From Candidatus Methanofastidiosum methylothiophilum (GTDB taxonomy: Archaea; Methanobacteriota_B; Thermococci; Methanofastidiosales; Methanofastidiosaceae), in contig LNJC01000012.1 in NCBI GenBank assembly GCA_001587575.1, forward strand, positions 1-37,986: a stretch of DNA of 37,986 nt, given 5' to 3'. A program made the translations under genes and the position numbers. Shown piece by piece: positions 2,832 through 37,646 of the stretch; the first letter of the stretch is position 1, and each line of letters starts with the position of its first letter. The notes beneath the pieces are model-generated. The model had not been told where the DNA came from. It saw only the letters and a program-made list of their open reading frames with translations, and ran no database searches.

Positions 2832-3499
2832 ATAGCTTTCAGATATACACTATTTTAAGATATCATTTTGGAGAAGTTGGAAGCTGGTGGCCTAAAGAAA
2901 ATCCTTTTGAGGTTATTATTGGCTCCATACTAACACAACAATCAAGTTGGACTAATGTAGAAAAGGCATTAATAAATTTAAAAAAAGCAAATGTTATGAC
3001 TCCAAAAGATATAGCTATTATGCCTATAGAAGATCTAAAGCAGATCATTAAGCCGAGTGGATTCTTTAATCAAAAATCAGAAAGACTTAAAGACATTTCA
3101 AAATATATCTTAGAAAAATATGAAGGAGATGTCTCATTATTAATTAAAAATGATAAAAAATATCTAAGAGAAGAACTCCTAAAATTAAAGGGAATTGGCA
3201 GAGAAACTGCAGATAGCATCATTCTCTATGCGGCAGAACAAGATGAATTTGTAGTAGATGCTTATACAAAAAGAATATACTCAAGATTAAAAATAGTTCG
3301 AGAAGATATTGGTTATGAAGATTTAAAAAAACATATAACAGAAGAGATACCAAAAGATCTAATAATTTATCAGGAGTTTCATGGGCTTATTGTACTTTTA
3401 GGGAAAAACTATTGTAAAAAAAATAATCCTATTTGTAAAGACTGCCCACTACATTTAAAATGTGATTTCTCAATAAGTAATAGTGTTAACTTTTGTTAA
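2828..3499 (+). CDS. Endonuclease III-related DNA glycosylase, MagIII-like
   Basis: A 223-residue helix-hairpin-helix GPD glycosylase with a C-terminal [4Fe-4S] site (Cys-X6-Cys-X2-Cys-X5-Cys in [17 protein letters not shown]). The hairpin [10 protein letters not shown] is at about residues 120-129 and the catalytic aspartate is Asp144 (VVDAYTKRI). In true endonuclease III the hairpin reads GRKTA, with a lysine needed for lyase activity. Here it is Glu126, as in the MagIII subgroup of 3-methyladenine glycosylases, so a monofunctional alkylbase glycosylase is more likely than an AP lyase. The N-terminus ([26 protein letters not shown]) also resembles that subgroup. It overlaps hemB by ATGA, and its 3' end overlaps the convergent TPR gene by 14 nt. 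Confidence 0.82.
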
Positions 3500-4649
3500 A
3501 AACTTTTTTATATATACTTTTTGCACTATCAGAGAATCTCTTTGAATCTTCAGTTCTTCCTTGAGATTCGTACATCTCTGCAAGATTTAACATTGCCATT
3601 GCCACATCTGGATTACTACTGCCAAAAGCTTTCTCTAGGATAATAATTCCTTTCTTGAAATAAAACTCTGCTTCCTCATATCTTTCTCTTGCCCGGTATA
3701 ATCCTGCAACATTATTTAAGTAAGTAACTAGAGAAGGATGCGTTTCCCCTAAAGTATTCTGGGATATTTTAATTGCTTCTTTAAAGTACCTCTCTGCATC
3801 ATCATATTTTCCTATTCCTTCTTTTACTAAAGCTATGTTGTTAAATGTCATTGCATTGTAATGGTGATTTCTCCCATAAGTTTTCTCATCAATTTTTAAT
3901 ACTTCTTTGTATAGTTTTTCAGCTGCTTCATAGTTCCCTTCAAGATAATAAACACCTGCAATGTTATTTATTGCGGTGGCAAGGTTGGGATGATCGGGCC
4001 CGTAAGAAATTTTCCATATTTCAAAAGCTCTTTTGTATAACTTTAATGAATCATCATATTGGCCCTTGATTTTGTATATTTCTGCAAGATTATTAAGTGC
4101 AGATCCGATGTTTGGATTTTTTAGTTCTTTATTATGCTCAAATATTTCTATAGCTTTTCTGTAAAAAGATTCTGCTTCATTAAATTTTTTCTCTAAACGG
4201 TAAAGGTCTGCTAAATTATTATAAGATATTGCAGTTTCAAGATGATCCTGACCAAAAGCTTTTAGTTTAATATCTAAAGATCTTGTGTATAGTGGCTCAG
4301 CTTCTTTGTATTTCCCCCTCGATACGTATATACCTGCAAGATTATTCAAAGATGCGGCTACATCTGTATTATCAGGGCCCAAAGTATTTTCCCATATTTC
4401 TAATGCTTTTACAGAAAGAGATTCGGCCTCTTCAAATTTTCCCTGAACTTCATAAATAAGAGAAAGATTATTCATAGAAATAGCAACTTTAGTACTATCA
4501 TTTCCGTAAACTTTTTTTGCAATGTCAATAGAAAGTTTTGCAAGCTCTGCCGCTTCTTTGTATTTTCCTTCCCGATAATTTGTTATTGCTTTGTAGGTAG
4601 TATTATCCCAAAGTACGTCATAAGCTTTTTCTTGATTATTATGGCCCAT
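3486..4649 (-). CDS. Kinesin-light-chain-type tetratricopeptide repeat protein
   Basis: A 387-residue protein made almost entirely of about nine 42-residue TPR units. Each unit carries a NNLA(G/E)IY helix, a (K/R)YEEAE helix and a loop of the type YGPDHP(N/S)LA. No signal peptide, membrane segment or catalytic domain is visible, so it is probably a cytosolic protein-binding scaffold. The start is the ATG at 4649 with GGAG about 8 nt upstream on the minus strand. It lies 26 nt downstream of the response regulator gene and is probably co-transcribed, which suggests the pair acts together in signalling. The partner is unknown. Confidence 0.88.
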   Translation of the reverse strand: MGHNNQEKAYDVLWDNTTYKAITNYREGKYKEAAELAKLSIDIAKKVYGNDSTKVAISMNNLSLIYEVQGKFEEAESLSVKALEIWENTLGPDNTDVAASLNNLAGIYVSRGKYKEAEPLYTRSLDIKLKAFGQDHLETAISYNNLADLYRLEKKFNEAESFYRKAIEIFEHNKELKNPNIGSALNNLAEIYKIKGQYDDSLKLYKRAFEIWKISYGPDHPNLATAINNIAGVYYLEGNYEAAEKLYKEVLKIDEKTYGRNHHYNAMTFNNIALVKEGIGKYDDAERYFKEAIKISQNTLGETHPSLVTYLNNVAGLYRARERYEEAEFYFKKGIIILEKAFGSSNPDVAMAMLNLAEMYESQGRTEDSKRFSDSAKSIYKKVFNKS

Positions 4650-4675
4650 TTTATTACTCCTATGGATAAATAAAA

Positions 4676-5026
4676 CTAAATAGTCTTATATTTTTCTATA
4701 ATCTCTTTTAGTTCATTGAATCTAATAGGTTTTCTTAAGACTTCTTTAACGCCGGCTTCTAATGCTTTAGAGCCTATGGTAGATCCATAAGCAGTGATGG
4801 CAATTATCTTTGCCTTCGGATCAATTATTAGTATTTCCTTAGTAGCCTCTATGCCACTTTTTTTTGGAAGTTGTAAGTCCATGAGAACCATGTCTGGTTT
4901 ATGTTCTTTGTAAAGAGAAACTGCTGCTTCTCCGTCCGAAGCAGTAAATAAAGTATCTTCCTCTAGTAACTCCTGATAAAATTCAGATAAATCTTTGTAA
5001 TCCTCGACAATTAAGATTTTTGACAT
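4676..5026 (-). CDS. Stand-alone response regulator receiver domain protein
   Basis: A 116-residue CheY-like receiver with no output domain. The acidic pocket is Glu8-Asp9 (LIVEDYKDL), the phospho-acceptor is Asp50 (LMDLQLP), the switch threonine is Thr78 (AITAYG) and the conserved lysine is Lys99 (LRKPI). All catalytic positions are intact, so it should accept phosphate from a histidine kinase. No kinase gene is nearby. It is the first gene of a minus-strand pair with the TPR protein and is divergent from the cfb operon, sharing the 5027-5232 control region. Output is probably through protein contact, perhaps with the TPR protein. Confidence 0.92.
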   Translation of the reverse strand: MSKILIVEDYKDLSEFYQELLEEDTLFTASDGEAAVSLYKEHKPDMVLMDLQLPKKSGIEATKEILIIDPKAKIIAITAYGSTIGSKALEAGVKEVLRKPIRFNELKEIIEKYKTI

Positions 5027-5106
5027 AAAACCACACTATTTTTAAAATATCTACTTTCTTTATGTATTTAGCTTATAAAAACTTTATTATGAAAAAACGA
5101 TAAACT

Positions 5107-5150
5107 TTTAATAGATGCCAGTTTAGGCCAGTTGGAACTTATCTATTAAA
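5107..5150. promoter_or_regulatory. Perfect 10-bp inverted repeat enclosing two GCCAGTT direct repeats; candidate operator
   Basis: TTTAATAGAT (5107-5116) and its exact reverse complement ATCTATTAAA (5141-5150) flank 24 bp that contain GCCAGTT twice, at 5117-5123 and 5127-5133, exactly 10 bp apart. It lies between two divergent genes (response regulator and cfbA), just upstream of a TATA-like TTTAAAAAT at 5158-5166. A transcription factor site is more likely than a terminator because no transcript ends here. Confidence 0.55.
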
Positions 5151-5157
5151 CAAAACC

Positions 5158-5219
5158 TTTAAAAATAATGAAAATTAAGATAAGTAACACATAATATAAA
5201 TAAAGTAACACGATAATAT
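5158..5219 (+). promoter_or_regulatory. cfb operon promoter region with a tandem direct repeat
   Basis: Two TATA candidates are visible: TTTAAAAAT at 5158-5166, and TAATATAAAT at 5192-5201. A direct repeat covers the second: AAGTAACACATAATAT (5182-5197) and AAGTAACACGATAATAT (5203-5219), about 21 bp apart with one inserted base. Such spacing, two helical turns, suits a dimeric regulator bound over the core promoter. A TGAGGTG ribosome binding site follows at 5220-5226, ahead of the cfbA ATG at 5233. Confidence 0.5.
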
Positions 5220-5232
5220 TTGAGGTGTAACT

Positions 5233-5616
5233 ATGAAAGGTGCAATTTTAGTTGGACATGGAAGTAGGCTAAATTACAACAAAGAGCTTCTAATAAAGTT
5301 ATCAGAAACTTTTAAAGAGTATTTCGATGGCAAAATAATTGAAATAGGATTCATGGAAATGAACACTCCAAAAATAATGGATGCAATTAGAAGTGCTGTT
5401 AAAAAAGGTGCAGATGAATTGTACATAGTTCCAGTATTTCTAGCAAAAGGTATACACACGACAGAAGATATTCCAAATGAAGTGGGAGGTTTCCAAAGTG
5501 GAAAAAGCTTCATGGATTTAGATGGGAAAAAAGTAAAGCTAATCTACTGCGAACCTATCGGACCTGACAGAAGAATTGCGGAAATTCTTTGGGATAGAGT
5601 AAAGGAAAAATATTAA
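5233..5616 (+). CDS. cfbA: Sirohydrochlorin nickelochelatase (small CbiX type)
   Basis: Inserts Ni2+ into sirohydrochlorin, the first committed step of coenzyme F430 synthesis. The 127-residue length is that of the short, homodimeric archaeal CbiX/CfbA form. The metal-binding histidines are His9 (LVGHGSR) and His75 (GIHTTEDIP). No histidine-rich loop is present. The family can also insert cobalt, but four other F430 genes follow without gaps, so nickel insertion is the likely role. TGAGGTG lies 6 nt before the ATG. The stop overlaps the cfbE start (TAATG). Confidence 0.93.
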   Translation: MKGAILVGHGSRLNYNKELLIKLSETFKEYFDGKIIEIGFMEMNTPKIMDAIRSAVKKGADELYIVPVFLAKGIHTTEDIPNEVGGFQSGKSFMDLDGKKVKLIYCEPIGPDRRIAEILWDRVKEKY

Positions 5617-6887
5617 TGAACAAATTTATTGTTCTTGATATAAATCATGGGGGAGATTATCTAGCAGCTATTTTAAAAAATAGAGGCTACGAAGTAATTG
5701 TCTATGATATATATCATAAGGGAGGAGAGAAAAAACAAAAACTCAATGAAAAAAACATTAGAGTTTTTGAGGATATAAGGGGAGACCATTTAGATTATAA
5801 TATTGCATATCCTGTCCATTGCCCTGAACAATTTTTTTCTTTATTTCCAAATAACAATAAAATTACTCATCATGAATTAGTAAAATTTCTTTTTAATCAT
5901 AGAAAAAAAATAATTGAGATAACTGGATCAAAGGGTAAAACTACTACTGCAAATCTATTGGCTTTTCTTTTATCATTTGAAGAGGAGATTTTATTAAATA
6001 ATTCAACTGGATTTCAGAGTTTTATAAATGGTAATTCAAAATTAATAGATAAAGAAAATTCTATATCTGCAGGTTATACTGCTAAAATATTGTCCCAAGA
6101 GTATAATAAATTTCATGTTCTCGAAGAAAGCCTTGGAGTGTGTGGAGTTGGTGATGTATCTATTCTAACAAGTATGAATCCTATTTATAATATTAAAGCA
6201 GGAAACGGAAATTCAGTTGATGCAAAAAAGCAGCTTTTCAAATTATCGGAAAATAAGATTATAATTGACTCAAAAGATAAAATTGCAAATAATATAGCAA
6301 ATGAATATAAAAAAGAAGTATTCCGAATAGGAGAAGATATTAATATTATTACCCCGGACACATTAGAAGTCGGAAAAGATGTTAATTCAACTATTTATAT
6401 CAAAGATTTAGAATTAATATCTAAGTTTAAGGGAAGCTATCTTTTGGCAGGGTATGTCAATCCTATCTTATTTAGCGTTATGTCTCTTAAGATACTTGAT
6501 AAAGACTTAGAAAACGTTATTTCGAATTTATCTAGGTTCGATGGAGTCAAAAATAGATTGTCAGTTATAATTGAGAACAGTATTACTAAAATCATTGATA
6601 AATCTGGAGGATTTTCTGAGGCCAGTCTAAGATATTTATTATCTCTTCTAAAAAGACACTATGATATTTATTATAAAAACATTAATTTATTAATTGATTT
6701 AAATAATGTATCGCATTGTCAACAGATAGATCTGAATGCATTAGATGCTGTAATTGGAGAATTTGGTAATCTTGTAGACAATGCATTTTTAGTAGGTAAC
6801 TACGATTTTGAAAGATTTAAATATCTAAAAAATAGTTCTGAGCTTATTACACAAAAAGGGGATCTTTTAATAGAATGTGGTAAGTGA
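5616..6887 (+). CDS. cfbE: Coenzyme F430 synthetase (Mur ligase-like)
   Basis: Catalyses the last F430 step, ATP-dependent closure of the six-membered carbocyclic ring from the seco-F430 acid. The protein has 423 residues and a Mur-ligase layout: an N-terminal Rossmann-like region, the ATP-binding loop TGSKGKTTT (about residues 103-111), a central domain with LEESLGVCGVGDVSILTSMNP, and a C-terminal ligase domain. Peptidoglycan synthesis genes are absent from the neighbourhood and the gene lies between cfbA and cfbD, which supports F430 rather than cell-wall function. It starts one base inside the cfbA stop and ends 1 nt before the cfbD ATG. Confidence 0.92.
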   Translation: MNKFIVLDINHGGDYLAAILKNRGYEVIVYDIYHKGGEKKQKLNEKNIRVFEDIRGDHLDYNIAYPVHCPEQFFSLFPNNNKITHHELVKFLFNHRKKIIEITGSKGKTTTANLLAFLLSFEEEILLNNSTGFQSFINGNSKLIDKENSISAGYTAKILSQEYNKFHVLEESLGVCGVGDVSILTSMNPIYNIKAGNGNSVDAKKQLFKLSENKIIIDSKDKIANNIANEYKKEVFRIGEDINIITPDTLEVGKDVNSTIYIKDLELISKFKGSYLLAGYVNPILFSVMSLKILDKDLENVISNLSRFDGVKNRLSVIIENSITKIIDKSGGFSEASLRYLLSLLKRHYDIYYKNINLLIDLNNVSHCQQIDLNALDAVIGEFGNLVDNAFLVGNYDFERFKYLKNSSELITQKGDLLIECGK

Positions 6888-32907: not shown

Positions 32908-34695
32908 ATGAGTAGTTTTAATATTTCTAAAAATCTTATCCTTCCAAAAGAAAGAATTTTTCTGAATCCATCAGATGAATTTTATATTAACTATCTAAAA
33001 CCTTATTATGTGATCACAAAAGACGGACAATATCTTTTTGCCTCTACTCAAAAAGGAAGAAGGCCAGATCAAGTCCATTACATGGTTCCAAAAGAATATA
33101 AACTAGGATCTGGTCAAAAAGGTTTTGACATTGATATTGGAAAAGAAGTTTATAGAATAGTTATGGAGTACCTGAGAGAAATCCCTAATGTTATTGTGTC
33201 TGATGGAATTCAAGGAGAAAATGGATATGAAGTTGGAATAAGGTCAGTTGTGAGTATTGAAAATCCACACAGCGCATATATTTCCTGGATGGGTAAAATG
33301 ATGGTATTTCCCCCTAAAGAAGAGGTGGAACCTAGCTGTTATAATTTTATAATCCCTGAAAAACTCCCTGAAGAATATTCTTCCAGGATAAAAAAGGTCT
33401 GGCCCGATTATAATGAGAACGAACCACTATCTCTTTACGATTTTACTGAGATGGAAAATGACATCAGATGTGTTATAAATCTCGGAATTGACTATTTTGG
33501 TGGAGCCTTCAAAAAGCCTAATTTAACTATGGTTTGGAACAAGGGCGAATCTGACAATATGATATCTTTCCACGCAGGTCTTTTAGAAAGCTCTGTTATA
33601 ATAGGCCTAAGTGGTACAGGGAAAACTACCCTAACGGTCGGCCCAAATCTTGAACAGGACGATGCTGTTTTAGGAAAAGTTATTAAAAAAGACGATAAAA
33701 TTGTTGATGTAAAATTAGTTGGCCTTGAAGCTGCAAGTTTTGCTAAATCTGAGGGGATGTCAGAAAAAAGCCCAGAGTATCCAGGTTTGATGAAATCGAG
33801 AGATAGAAAGCATATAGTGTTGGCAATGAATATAGACTGCGAAGGTGTAGATTATGTTAAAAAGAACATTAATGGATACGATGTTGAAATCCCTGTTCCA
33901 ACTAGCAACGTAGGCTCATTACTTTGTAAGAGTTACGAAAAGAGCAAAACGACTAATGGCAGATTCATATTCCTTTTCAGCGATTTAAACTCTTCTTGGG
34001 GAAAAATGGACAAATATTTGAGAAATTTTGTTTTGAGCTTTAAGAGATACGATATCTTTAATCCTATTGTTAAGGTTACTAATCCACTTATGGCTGTTGC
34101 GTTTGACAGCGCTTGTGAAAGTATTATAACCTCTGCGATTTCGGGCAAGGTTCCTGGAACTCGAGTTAGATCCTATTCTGCTACGGATTTTATGGCAAGA
34201 GAGCAGGCTGAACAAGCAGTTCTAAAAAAGAAAGTTTTTAATGACATGGGGCTTGGACAGGATGGAAAAATAAACTTTTTAATTATTAATACCGGTTTTG
34301 TTGGAGAGTTTGATCTAAATGGGAAATCAATTGGTGGAGAAAAAATTACAGTTTCAGACTCAAAAACTCTTCTTAAACTTTCAACTCATGGTCTTATTAA
34401 AAACTGGATAAAAGATCCTGTATATGGGTACTTAATTCCTTCGCCTAAAGAACTTAGCGAAGTTCATGGAATGAAGAACTTTGGAGAAAGATTCAATCCC
34501 CTTAACTACTACTCGCCTCATGATTATTTGGAATTTGTAAAGATCGATATAAAAGAAAGAAAAGATTTCTTATACAAAATATTTGCGTCTCAAAAGAACT
34601 ATCCAAATCTAGAAGATGTAATTGGAGTATGGGATGAAATCTTATTGCCTTCTCCAAAAGAAATCAAAAAATTCTATGATACTTACTACTCATGA
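32908..34695 (+). CDS. Phosphoenolpyruvate carboxykinase, ATP-type, divergent
   Basis: Interconverts oxaloacetate and phosphoenolpyruvate plus CO2, a gluconeogenic or anaplerotic step. The 595-residue chain has the kinase P-loop GLSGTGKTTLT (about residues 233-243), the metal-binding Lys region YFGGAFKKPNLTM and a SFHAGL histidine, plus EQDDAV where the ATP family has GDDEHGW. It lacks the GTP-family P-loop signature, so ATP is the likely nucleotide. Several motifs are unusual and the protein is longer than typical ATP-type PEPCK (about 530). The start is ATG 32908, since GTG 32899 has no better RBS. The tRNA-Tyr gene follows. Confidence 0.8.
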   Translation: MSSFNISKNLILPKERIFLNPSDEFYINYLKPYYVITKDGQYLFASTQKGRRPDQVHYMVPKEYKLGSGQKGFDIDIGKEVYRIVMEYLREIPNVIVSDGIQGENGYEVGIRSVVSIENPHSAYISWMGKMMVFPPKEEVEPSCYNFIIPEKLPEEYSSRIKKVWPDYNENEPLSLYDFTEMENDIRCVINLGIDYFGGAFKKPNLTMVWNKGESDNMISFHAGLLESSVIIGLSGTGKTTLTVGPNLEQDDAVLGKVIKKDDKIVDVKLVGLEAASFAKSEGMSEKSPEYPGLMKSRDRKHIVLAMNIDCEGVDYVKKNINGYDVEIPVPTSNVGSLLCKSYEKSKTTNGRFIFLFSDLNSSWGKMDKYLRNFVLSFKRYDIFNPIVKVTNPLMAVAFDSACESIITSAISGKVPGTRVRSYSATDFMAREQAEQAVLKKKVFNDMGLGQDGKINFLIINTGFVGEFDLNGKSIGGEKITVSDSKTLLKLSTHGLIKNWIKDPVYGYLIPSPKELSEVHGMKNFGERFNPLNYYSPHDYLEFVKIDIKERKDFLYKIFASQKNYPNLEDVIGVWDEILLPSPKEIKKFYDTYYS

Positions 34696-34706
34696 ATACC
34701 GAAAAG

Positions 34707-34716
34707 CTTTAAAATA
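34707..34716 (+). promoter_or_regulatory. Box A promoter of tRNA-Tyr
   Basis: CTTTAAAATA is centred about 26 nt before the mature 5' end of the tRNA, the standard archaeal distance. Confidence 0.6.
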
Positions 34717-34737
34717 AGTTCATTTAACTTCATGTAG

Positions 34738-34812
34738 CCCGGCGTGGCCTAGTCTGGTTAGGGCAGTGGACTGTAGATCCACGGATCGCTGGTTCAAATC
34801 CGGCCGCCGGGA
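34738..34812 (+). tRNA. tRNA-Tyr (anticodon GTA)
   Basis: A 75-nt, intron-less tRNA. The acceptor stem CCCGGCG pairs perfectly with CGCCGGG, giving the C1-G72 pair typical of archaeal tRNA-Tyr. The anticodon arm is GTGGA-CTGTAGA-TCCAC. The T arm is GCTGG-TTCAAAT-CCGGC, and the discriminator base is A (34812). CCA is not encoded. tRNA genes are frequent integration sites, and a foreign-looking replication gene begins within 1 kb downstream. Confidence 0.96.
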
Positions 34813-34826
34813 CTTTTATGCTTTTT
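34813..34826 (+). terminator. T-rich terminator after tRNA-Tyr
   Basis: Two short T runs (CTTTT and CTTTTT) directly follow the discriminator base, the usual form for archaeal tRNA genes. Confidence 0.4.
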
Positions 34827-35010: not shown

Positions 35011-35370
35011 TTAAGACTCTATTTTTTGGGAATTATCGATATCGTAAATCATTTTGCTCTTCCATATGGACTGGATCATGACCTTTGTATCTGTAGCAGT
35101 CTTGTTAAGTTCAGTGTCGTTCTCTTTGCACAGATCATCAAAAACTGGCCTTATATCTGAAAGGTTGTCTGAGACATATAGAACTATGGCACTATCCCAA
35201 GATGGGTCTTCCCCGCACTCAAGGATCGCATACTTTCCCTTATTCCCCCCTCTACTATTCATGACTTCACCTTCTTCAGCTTCAGCCAAGGTATAGCCGT
35301 ATACTTTCCTTACATTGGGCATTGATTTATCCCCAACATAAGCCCGATATCTGATTAGATTTTTTGGCAT
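35011..35370 (-). CDS. Unknown small protein of the tRNA-linked element
   Basis: A 119-residue protein, not recognised. It is polar, without membrane helix or signal peptide, with an alternating pattern in LIRYRAYVGDKSMPNVRKVY and KYAILECGEDPSWDSAIVLYV. The sequence before the start on the minus strand contains GGAGGTAAGAAA and then ATG, a good ribosome binding site. Its GC content is between that of the host genes and the replication gene. It lies downstream of the replication gene in the same direction, separated by the inverted-repeat region. A DNA-binding or copy-control role would fit the position but nothing in the sequence shows it. Confidence 0.65.
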   Translation of the reverse strand: MPKNLIRYRAYVGDKSMPNVRKVYGYTLAEAEEGEVMNSRGGNKGKYAILECGEDPSWDSAIVLYVSDNLSDIRPVFDDLCKENDTELNKTATDTKVMIQSIWKSKMIYDIDNSQKIES

Positions 35371-35405: not shown

Positions 35406-35506
35406 TGACACTTATGACGGTTTTATAGTGATTTTAGTAAAAGTCCTATAATCTATATCATATAGGGAGTTTTATGGAAAAGGCAAGATAACCGTCATAT
35501 GTGTCA
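35406..35506. repeat. 17-bp near-perfect inverted repeat with nested 6-bp palindrome; candidate origin or control site
   Basis: TGACACTTATGACGGTT (35406-35422) and AACCGTCATATGTGTCA (35490-35506) are reverse complements at 16 of 17 positions. The 67 bp between them contain a second inverted repeat, CCTATA (35445-35450) and TATAGG (35461-35466), 10 bp apart. It sits between the end of the replication gene and the start of the next minus-strand gene. It could be a replication origin, an operator pair, or a long hairpin. Confidence 0.6.
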
Positions 35507-35516
35507 CAGTCAATAA

Positions 35517-37646
35517 TCACCAGTTGCTACCCCTGTAGCTTTTCCTCATTCTCTCCACCTGATCTGATATCAATTCAATTCCTTCCCAATACCTGTTGCT
35601 GCCATCTCTAGTTTTTTTTAGGCCAATCTGGGATAGCCTCCTGCCGAAGGCCTGCTGGGATATTGGCGTTGCTTTTATGAAGCTGCAATACTCCTTGTAG
35701 GCCTCGTAAAGATCACCCGCAAGCGTCTTTTCTAGCACTCCCATCTTGCAAAGATCATCCAGGAAATCCTTTAGAGGGTCCATCTCTCCCTTGTACTCCT
35801 CGGTGGCATCGACAACAATTGAAGGCGGAGCTAATCCTTCCCTTTGCCAATTAAGGCACCCTTCTATGATCCAGTTCAAAATGCCGGCCTTCTCTTGTTT
35901 GAGTTTTGTTGCAAGTTCTCTGTCCTGCCTTTCCTCGGGGATTGTCACTGCAAATGGGACGAGCCTTATCCTTCGCCAGATGGCATTTTCCGCCCCTTTT
36001 ATCTCTGGTTTGTTGTTTGCAGCGATCCAGATCTTAAAATTAGGAACAAACTCAAATCCTTCAGAATAGAGGAATCTTGCATAGATCTTATCCTGGCCTG
36101 TCAGCTGCTTGACTAAATTTTCTGCAAGCTGCTTTCCCTCCTCCACTTCAACGGAGCAGACAAGCCTTGCGCCTTTTAATCTTGCAATATCATTTCTAGG
36201 GCCAGTATCATTTTTTTTGATCACAAAAGTTGAGAAGTCTGTCTGCCTGGAATAGTCGCCCATTAGATCCCTTATTACCTCCAGAAATGTTGTCTTGCCG
36301 TTGGCACCTGTGCCGTGAAGAAAGAATAGAACCTGCTCTCTGGTGTCTCCTGTAAGGCTATAGCCTACTGCCTTTTGGATATATGCTATTAGTTCTTCAT
36401 TGCCATCAAATATCTCTTCCAAAAACTTTGCCCACTGAGGACATTCAGAAGAAGGCTCAAAGGAGACATTTGCCATCTTTGTGATGAACTCTTCCTTCCT
36501 GTGATCTTGCAGGAAAAGCCCTGTCCTAAGATCTATTATTCCATTTTCAACGTTTAGAATCCAGATGTTGTGGTCAAGCTCATCTGGTGAGACAGGTACA
36601 AAAGAAGCTGCAAGCTTTATCATAGACTCTATTCTGTTTGAGCTCTCTGAAGTTATTGCCCACTTTGAAAGAGCCATCTTGTTCTCCTGGTCATTTTCCT
36701 TCATGGACTCAATATGAATTGTCCTTGCCGTATCCATGGCAATCCTGTAGATGTCCCTCCGATCGTCTACTCTCCATATTTTTCCATTCCAGATCAACCA
36801 CCTGTTTAATGGGGGGCTGAATCTTATGCTATCGCCAAAGTACAGAATCATCCTCTCGGCGTTGCCTATGTCGGTCATTGAGATCTTGTTTTGAGAGAAA
36901 TTAGTCGTTATCTTTCCGATCTCACCCTCCCCTAGGGGATCCCTGCATCTTTCTTGATTTATGACCTTTAGGGCTTCCTTGACCATGTCAGGCGATAGTC
37001 CTCTATTCCGAAGGGTGCCAGATATTTTGGTAAGCTCTGTGTTTCTTTGCCCAGTCTCTATTATCCCTCTGTCCCTGGTATCCATTACTTCATTTTTTTC
37101 ATCTATTATACGCCAGAGCCAATCAGGTATTTCGATTAAGTGATTTCCATAAATTTTATTCTCCCATTTATATCTCTTGCCGGAAGGGTGAATGCTTGGA
37201 GGTGCCACGACGTAGCCTCCGTTGGCCTTAATATCAAGCCCAGGGTAAATTGATGGTATGGAATCAATGTCGCTTCCTCCCGTCCAGAAGTAGAAATGTT
37301 TGCCTCTTGAAGTTCTGACTATTGGCGTGTCTGGGATCTTACCTTTTGATAGTATTCTAAAAGATTCTTTTCCCTCCTCGCCATCAATATCAAGGACCAG
37401 GAGCTGGCTTATAGTTCCTGTGACCACACCTATGTTCGCATCTGGCCACTGCCCCCACCACTTTTTGACTAATTCGGATGTAACTTCCTTTGTCTGATAT
37501 TCCTTCCAGCTGATAAGGGGTCTTTTGTCCCTTGGAACTAATGGTATAGGATTAAGGCCAAAGACAACAAGGTAGTCCATGGCTATTGCTTTATTTGGAG
37601 GAAGCTCCCCCTCCCACGCATCATCATGATCTTGGTCGATACTCAC
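35517..37646 (-). CDS. Prim-Pol / D5-like SF3 helicase replication protein
   Basis: A 709-residue protein that combines a primase-polymerase and a replicative helicase, as in plasmids and viruses. The archaeo-eukaryotic primase domain (about residues 15-180) has Asp86 and Asp88 (VLDIDG), His117 (TSRGKHFYFW) and Asp138 (GLDIKANGG). A D5-type linker follows at about 270-420. The SF3 helicase has Walker A GTGANGKTT (445-453), a Walker B-like SVEVEE (about 498-503), sensor WIAANNKP (540-547) and an arginine pair at RRIRLVPF. A C-terminal winged helix ends the chain. The start is GTG at 37646, with GAGGTG 5 nt upstream inside a palindrome. GC content and codon use differ from the host. Confidence 0.92.
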   Translation of the reverse strand: MSIDQDHDDAWEGELPPNKAIAMDYLVVFGLNPIPLVPRDKRPLISWKEYQTKEVTSELVKKWWGQWPDANIGVVTGTISQLLVLDIDGEEGKESFRILSKGKIPDTPIVRTSRGKHFYFWTGGSDIDSIPSIYPGLDIKANGGYVVAPPSIHPSGKRYKWENKIYGNHLIEIPDWLWRIIDEKNEVMDTRDRGIIETGQRNTELTKISGTLRNRGLSPDMVKEALKVINQERCRDPLGEGEIGKITTNFSQNKISMTDIGNAERMILYFGDSIRFSPPLNRWLIWNGKIWRVDDRRDIYRIAMDTARTIHIESMKENDQENKMALSKWAITSESSNRIESMIKLAASFVPVSPDELDHNIWILNVENGIIDLRTGLFLQDHRKEEFITKMANVSFEPSSECPQWAKFLEEIFDGNEELIAYIQKAVGYSLTGDTREQVLFFLHGTGANGKTTFLEVIRDLMGDYSRQTDFSTFVIKKNDTGPRNDIARLKGARLVCSVEVEEGKQLAENLVKQLTGQDKIYARFLYSEGFEFVPNFKIWIAANNKPEIKGAENAIWRRIRLVPFAVTIPEERQDRELATKLKQEKAGILNWIIEGCLNWQREGLAPPSIVVDATEEYKGEMDPLKDFLDDLCKMGVLEKTLAGDLYEAYKEYCSFIKATPISQQAFGRRLSQIGLKKTRDGSNRYWEGIELISDQVERMRKSYRGSNW

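Follow-up and report, generated by a model that had tools for sequence, protein, structure and literature searches.

The inverted repeats directly downstream of the PrimPol-D5 primase-helicase gene of Candidatus Methanofastidiosum methylothiophilum very probably form the origin from which an integrated mobile element replicates, a site that the element's own PrimPol-D5 protein would bind and use. The best reading is an iteron origin of the SaPI/PICI kind in an element integrated in tRNA-Tyr. The window, by which we mean the whole stretch analyzed (37,986 nt of contig LNJC01000012.1), carries the PrimPol gene, then a gene for a 119-residue protein, then tRNA-Tyr (Table 1).

Table 1. Features around the predicted origin, in window positions.
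Feature	Position	Strand	Remarks
tRNA-Tyr	34738..34813	+	Its final 45 nt (34769-34813) form the att core, of which a second copy lies at the far element end
Gene for 119-residue protein, no family	35011..35370	-	Homologues found solely beside class A origins
Putative iteron replication origin, whole device	35406..35506	.	Kept behind 13/13 PrimPol-D5 genes of the genus with an assembled 3′ end
Origin arm 1	35406..35422	+	Iterons TGACACTTA (35406-35414) and TGACGGTTT (35415-35423)
A+T-rich spacer, presumed melting region	35423..35489	.	67 nt, 73% A+T
Inner CCTATA/TATAGG palindrome	35445..35466	.	Almost concentric; most relatives do not conserve it
Origin arm 2, opposite orientation	35490..35506	-	Iterons TGACACATA (35506-35498) and TGACGGTTA (35497-35489)
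PrimPol-PriCT-D5/SF3 helicase (P4-family primase) with C-terminal winged helix, presumed initiator	35517..37646	-	Pfam, TIGR01613, structure model and fold comparison

The inverted repeat begins 10 nt past the PrimPol stop codon, and arm 1 (TGACACTTATGACGGTT) is complementary to arm 2 at 16 of 17 positions. This confirms the initial annotation, which described a 17-bp inverted repeat with one mismatch around AT-rich DNA but missed that each 17-nt arm consists of two ~9-bp direct repeats. In 100 dinucleotide shuffles of the 160 nt past the stop codon, no equal to the repeat arose; when the whole 38-kb window was shuffled ten times, one shuffle reached the same score (spacers of 50-80 nt). The earlier statement that chance is very unlikely therefore holds locally but not for the window as a whole, and because of the latter result the case for an origin must rest on comparison. 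The second, 6-bp palindrome noted inside the repeat is present (CCTATA at 35445-35450, TATAGG at 35461-35466) and unusual in the window copy (2/500 shuffles). For eight other origins tested, the inner dyad stood at 95 to 398 of 500 shuffles in six cases and at 21 and 23 in two. We rejected the inner palindrome as a conserved part of the origin, since the spacer dyad clearly beats shuffles solely in the window copy.

The PrimPol gene (709 codons) encodes the Pfam domains Prim-Pol, PriCT_1, D5_N, DUF5906, and Pox_D5, and matches NCBIfam TIGR01613 (phage/plasmid primase, P4 family) with 312.3 bits against a curated cut-off of 108.7. At its C-terminal end the structure model (mean pLDDT 87.8) shows a winged helix, with the order helix-strand-helix-helix-strand-strand at residues 626-692. 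Residues 256-703 fit the SaPI5 primase-helicase (7ola_C; Z 30.7, 380 residues, rmsd 3.5), the PrimPol domain (residues 15-190) fits ORF904 of pRN1 (Z 14.6), and in fold comparison the helicase core also fits other SF3 helicases, including papillomavirus E1.

PrimPol homologues are present in six of the ten genomes of the genus. Repeats next to homologous Prim-Pol genes had been proposed as the check, and their absence as a refutation; a device of ~100 bp lies just downstream of every PrimPol-D5 gene with an assembled 3′ end (13 of 13). Left out of the 13 are G001:C33, which has a PrimPol domain without the D5 helicase, and G007:C19 and G008:C31, where the contig edge lies 11 and 5 nt past the match. 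The layout is one of inward-facing arms, made of ~9-bp direct repeats, that flank an A+T-rich spacer. In the 12 copies measured, the first arm starts 2-39 nt past the stop codon, the spacer is 60-68 nt long and 66-84% A+T, and the whole unit spans 95-107 nt.

Across four clades the repeat sequence varies and the layout is constant. Class A has TGACGGTT-type repeats (window, G007:C37, G006:C36, G007:C35), class B GTGACATCA-type repeats (G000:C2, G003:C152, G006:C13), class C ATGTAGG-type repeats (G006:C43, G007:C60, G006:C8, and G001:C41, with a variant at G000:C33), and class D TACACGGTT (G001:C2). The G001:C41 sequence contains N and its reading frame overruns the first arm, so that this origin was located by pattern. 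Iterons are clear in class B, where the plain inverted repeats are weak (12, 4, and 98 of 100 shuffles); conservation lies in the iterons. Searches of the ten genomes with arm patterns found class A in five places, class C in four, and class B in three; 11 of these 12 places are directly behind PrimPol, and reversed-pattern controls gave no matches. A search with the origin DNA returned close copies and chance matches. Between the window and G007:C37, identity is 98/101 in the origin, 1820/2063 in PrimPol, and 264/367 in the stretch with the 119-residue gene.

Some of the genus loci deviate from this pattern. No such structure was found behind the PrimPol domain gene of G001:C33; on this locus (L037, oriented 3496-5641) two adjacent genes open with a nearly identical PrimPol domain and have no D5 helicase. 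In two G007 PrimPol copies (L025:5545-7674 and L029:1-2114) the reading frame is split or interrupted by an in-frame TGA. Either the elements are decaying or the assembly is at fault there; some elements may thus be dead. A class A origin on G008:C116 (L242, 5102-5207) has no adjoining PrimPol. It lies between a restriction-type gene of 916 codons (named by eye) and small genes with a 406-codon recombinase-like gene, which shares 25% identity (E 6e-11) with the integrase of contig G000:C22 discussed below. This origin may be a remnant or belong to an element copied in trans.

Outside the genus, single-sequence searches of genome_contigs and viral_contigs found no relatives. An alignment query retrieved them, and we used the best 80 loci of 248 and the best 80 of 541. 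The 164 matching loci come from bacterial genomes, IMG/VR, plasmids, and phages; 158 of them, partly redundant and including a few Methanofastidiosum contigs from the genus set, reach the C-terminus and a further 150 nt or more. Among these best-match loci, an inverted repeat with a 15-120-nt loop that is stronger than all 25 shuffles follows the gene in 101 of 158. As controls, other long reading frames on these loci were put to the same test, and 22 of 320 passed. A score of at least 14 was reached in 73 of 158 versus 3 of 320 controls, and in the last 220 coding nucleotides in 2 of 158. The structure was not found there in 57 of the 158, including two Methanolinea loci, a Thermaerobacter plasmid, a Parageobacillus plasmid, and phage Wrath. 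Medians over a non-redundant set of 46 of these wider relatives are 57.5 nt for the loop and 21.5 nt for the distance past the stop codon. A significant direct repeat occurs in 31 of 50 non-redundant arms, with a period of 9 in 21, 8 in five, and 10 in five.

Streptococcus phage Sfi21 (NC_000872) served as a positive control. Its annotated origin (34487-34784), directly 3′ of the primase gene, has the arms CTTTAGTTACTTAGTTAC / GTAACTAAGTAACTAAAG, separated by 71 nt of A+T-rich sequence, a structure equaled by none of 200 shuffles. The initial annotation had suggested an origin, and the coincidence of the device with an annotated one supports that suggestion. The Sfi21 origin shares with ours the position, the facing arms of two repeats, and the A+T-rich spacer, and differs in belonging to a bacterial phage and in its GTTAC-type iterons, 8-bp repeats, and 71-nt spacer.

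The repeats could instead act in RNA, as a hairpin in the PrimPol 3′ untranslated region that serves as a terminator or stability element. Four copies, when folded as RNA, indeed exceed shuffles in stability by a wide margin (z -3.6 to -6.2). We nevertheless consider this improbable: a loop of 60-68 nt makes no terminator, and the arms are composed of direct repeats with periods of 8-10. The class C iteron variants are in swapped order between the arms, so that outer and inner iterons match across arms at 9/9 positions and outer with outer at 8/9 only. In class D, one arm has a decayed outer iteron and no compensating change.

The way the repeats co-vary with the protein supports a replication origin. 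With helicase identity held, arm similarity correlates with the identity of the last 100 residues (partial correlation 0.162, 0/300 permutations); with the C-terminus held, the correlation with helicase identity is 0.070 (42/300 permutations). The set comprises 50 non-redundant origins of 96 with an inverted-repeat score passing 11, Methanofastidiosum duplicates removed; since loci without a clear inverted repeat are left out, the correlation speaks only for loci that have one, and over distant pairs it is small. The 11 pairs with more than 50% C-terminal identity average 11.5 and 13.3 matching bases, versus 5-6.5 elsewhere. Within the genus, the window shares 67-69% of the helicase and 53-55% of the C-terminus with class B, and 57% and 58% with the class A locus G006:C36, identities that do not neatly separate class A from B. 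The partial correlations support the view that the repeat sequence tracks the C-terminal winged-helix domain of the initiator rather than the helicase. The repeats are predicted to be a site bound by the replication protein, as the initial annotation had proposed.

The known systems that this resembles most are those of SaPI and PICI. SaPI-type initiators recognize, with their C-terminal domain, an iteron origin directly downstream of their own gene, according to PMC7581432. PICI origins are described in PMC6092414 as always having two iteron sets that flank an AT-rich region, and the same source gives the pri-rep-ori of a PICI as driving plasmid replication. Opposite repeats load two head-to-head hexamers in the system described in PMC9894130. 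As these sources (PMC6092414, PMC7581432, PMC9894130) present the SaPI/PICI rep-ori, it shares with ours an origin that adjoins the 3′ end of the initiator gene, two opposite iteron sets around an A+T-rich stretch, and an SF3 primase-helicase initiator with a C-terminal DNA-binding domain. All our measurements fit this scheme, and binding and replication are inferred.

Unlike SaPI and PICI, our system has an archaeal host, iterons of ~9 bp, usually two per arm, and a fixed 95-107-bp unit; no phage-satellite genes were recognized in the assembled part. The likeness to ORF904 of the archaeal plasmid pRN1, a primase-polymerase, lies in the fold of the PrimPol domain. Phage P4 uses two separate origin sites. 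Its alpha protein is described as a P4-family primase-helicase with a winged-helix origin-binding domain (PMC10516667), and in both respects resembles ours.

In the mechanism we propose, the C-terminal winged helix of PrimPol-D5 would bind the ~9-bp direct repeats that make up the arms. Owing to the facing orientation of the arms, two head-to-head hexamers would be loaded across the A+T-rich spacer, which would melt; the SF3 helicase would then unwind outward and the PrimPol domain would prime, so that the element could replicate autonomously. As the origin is directly 3′ of the initiator gene, initiator and origin would travel as one cassette.

The 119-residue gene starts 35 nt beyond the origin arm, and homologues of its product occur beside four class A copies of the device. 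The repeats could accordingly be an operator of this gene, bound by the 119-residue protein or by a host regulator. We give this reading about as little weight as the hairpin, because in classes B, C, and D the device is also behind PrimPol, yet what comes next is a different gene, a convergent gene, or no gene. The initial annotation had named the 119-residue protein as a possible binder of the repeats; this is not borne out, since its homologues are limited to the four class A loci and the device also occurs with other genes or with none. The protein has no family in PHROGs or NCBIfam, and Pfam gave noise alone. A structure model (mean pLDDT 43, one sequence) was unusable, and a 148-residue class D look-alike (E 0.12) is not claimed as a homologue. 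In the homologues on L025, L027, and L029, ATA aligns with the ATG of the window gene, which points to either an unusual start codon or a start further in.

The element is integrated in tRNA-Tyr. The second att copy (G000:C22:12371-12415) adjoins a tyrosine recombinase gene and a transporter gene (named by eye); the recombinase gene (L229:11491-12399) matches Pfam Phage_integrase at 2.4e-35. Empty sites, with tRNA-Tyr and the transporter gene together on one locus, occur in G001, G002, G004, and G005. In G003 the two element ends are on separate contigs and the integrase is 96% identical. Although the origin is a dyad-symmetric site inside an integrated element with a tyrosine recombinase, a role as that enzyme's recombination or attachment site is the least probable reading of all, given that the att core maps to the 45 nt of tRNA-Tyr duplicated beside the C22 integrase and that four genomes have empty sites.

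The source genome is a 61-contig assembly, and the window contig (C12) ends 340 nt past the PrimPol gene. If both contigs belong to one element, it runs on C12 from 34814 to the end and on C22 to the att copy, and is at least ~15.5 kb long. The first C22 genes resemble, by eye, genes upstream of PrimPol in G007:C37. Ten C22 proteins were scanned from this incompletely assembled element; they include the integrase and beta-propeller, TPR, and zinc-ribbon proteins, and no packaging or repressor family was found among the ten. Eight of 14 other PrimPol loci scanned contain tRNA genes. The end of the window contig (37754-37986) matches the start of contig G000:C54 with 86% identity, and this recurrence is probably why the assembly breaks there. 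On G000:C54, small genes resembling those of an element extend as far as a tRNA-Thr.

Among the open-licence papers listed for origins, iterons, satellites, and archaeal elements, none describes an archaeal origin of this kind, as judged by title and abstract. The device is present in archaeal integrated elements and behind most of the broadly sampled P4-family primase genes, and so has the look of a general initiator-origin module. A broader idea, that a fixed ~100-bp double-headed cassette with an iteron-to-winged-helix code is common to archaeal and bacterial elements and gave rise in Methanofastidiosum to the origin-only G008:C116 as an element copied in trans by the initiator of another element, seems rather doubtful to us. 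Since iterons differ among the four archaeal clades and geometry does not, the winged-helix recognition code is directly testable, and the origin-initiator pair is a candidate for replicating vectors in methanogens.

A separate motif, TTTGGCC[CT]TA / TA[AG]GGCCAAA, is dispersed in the window (34856, 34998, 37843) and on loci L006, L007, L011, L028, L031-L033, and L036. The window contains six half-sites of this motif, whereas each of 20 shuffles had 0-1. Beside PrimPol loci the motif recurs as full palindromes such as TTGGCCCTAATTTTAAGGCCA.
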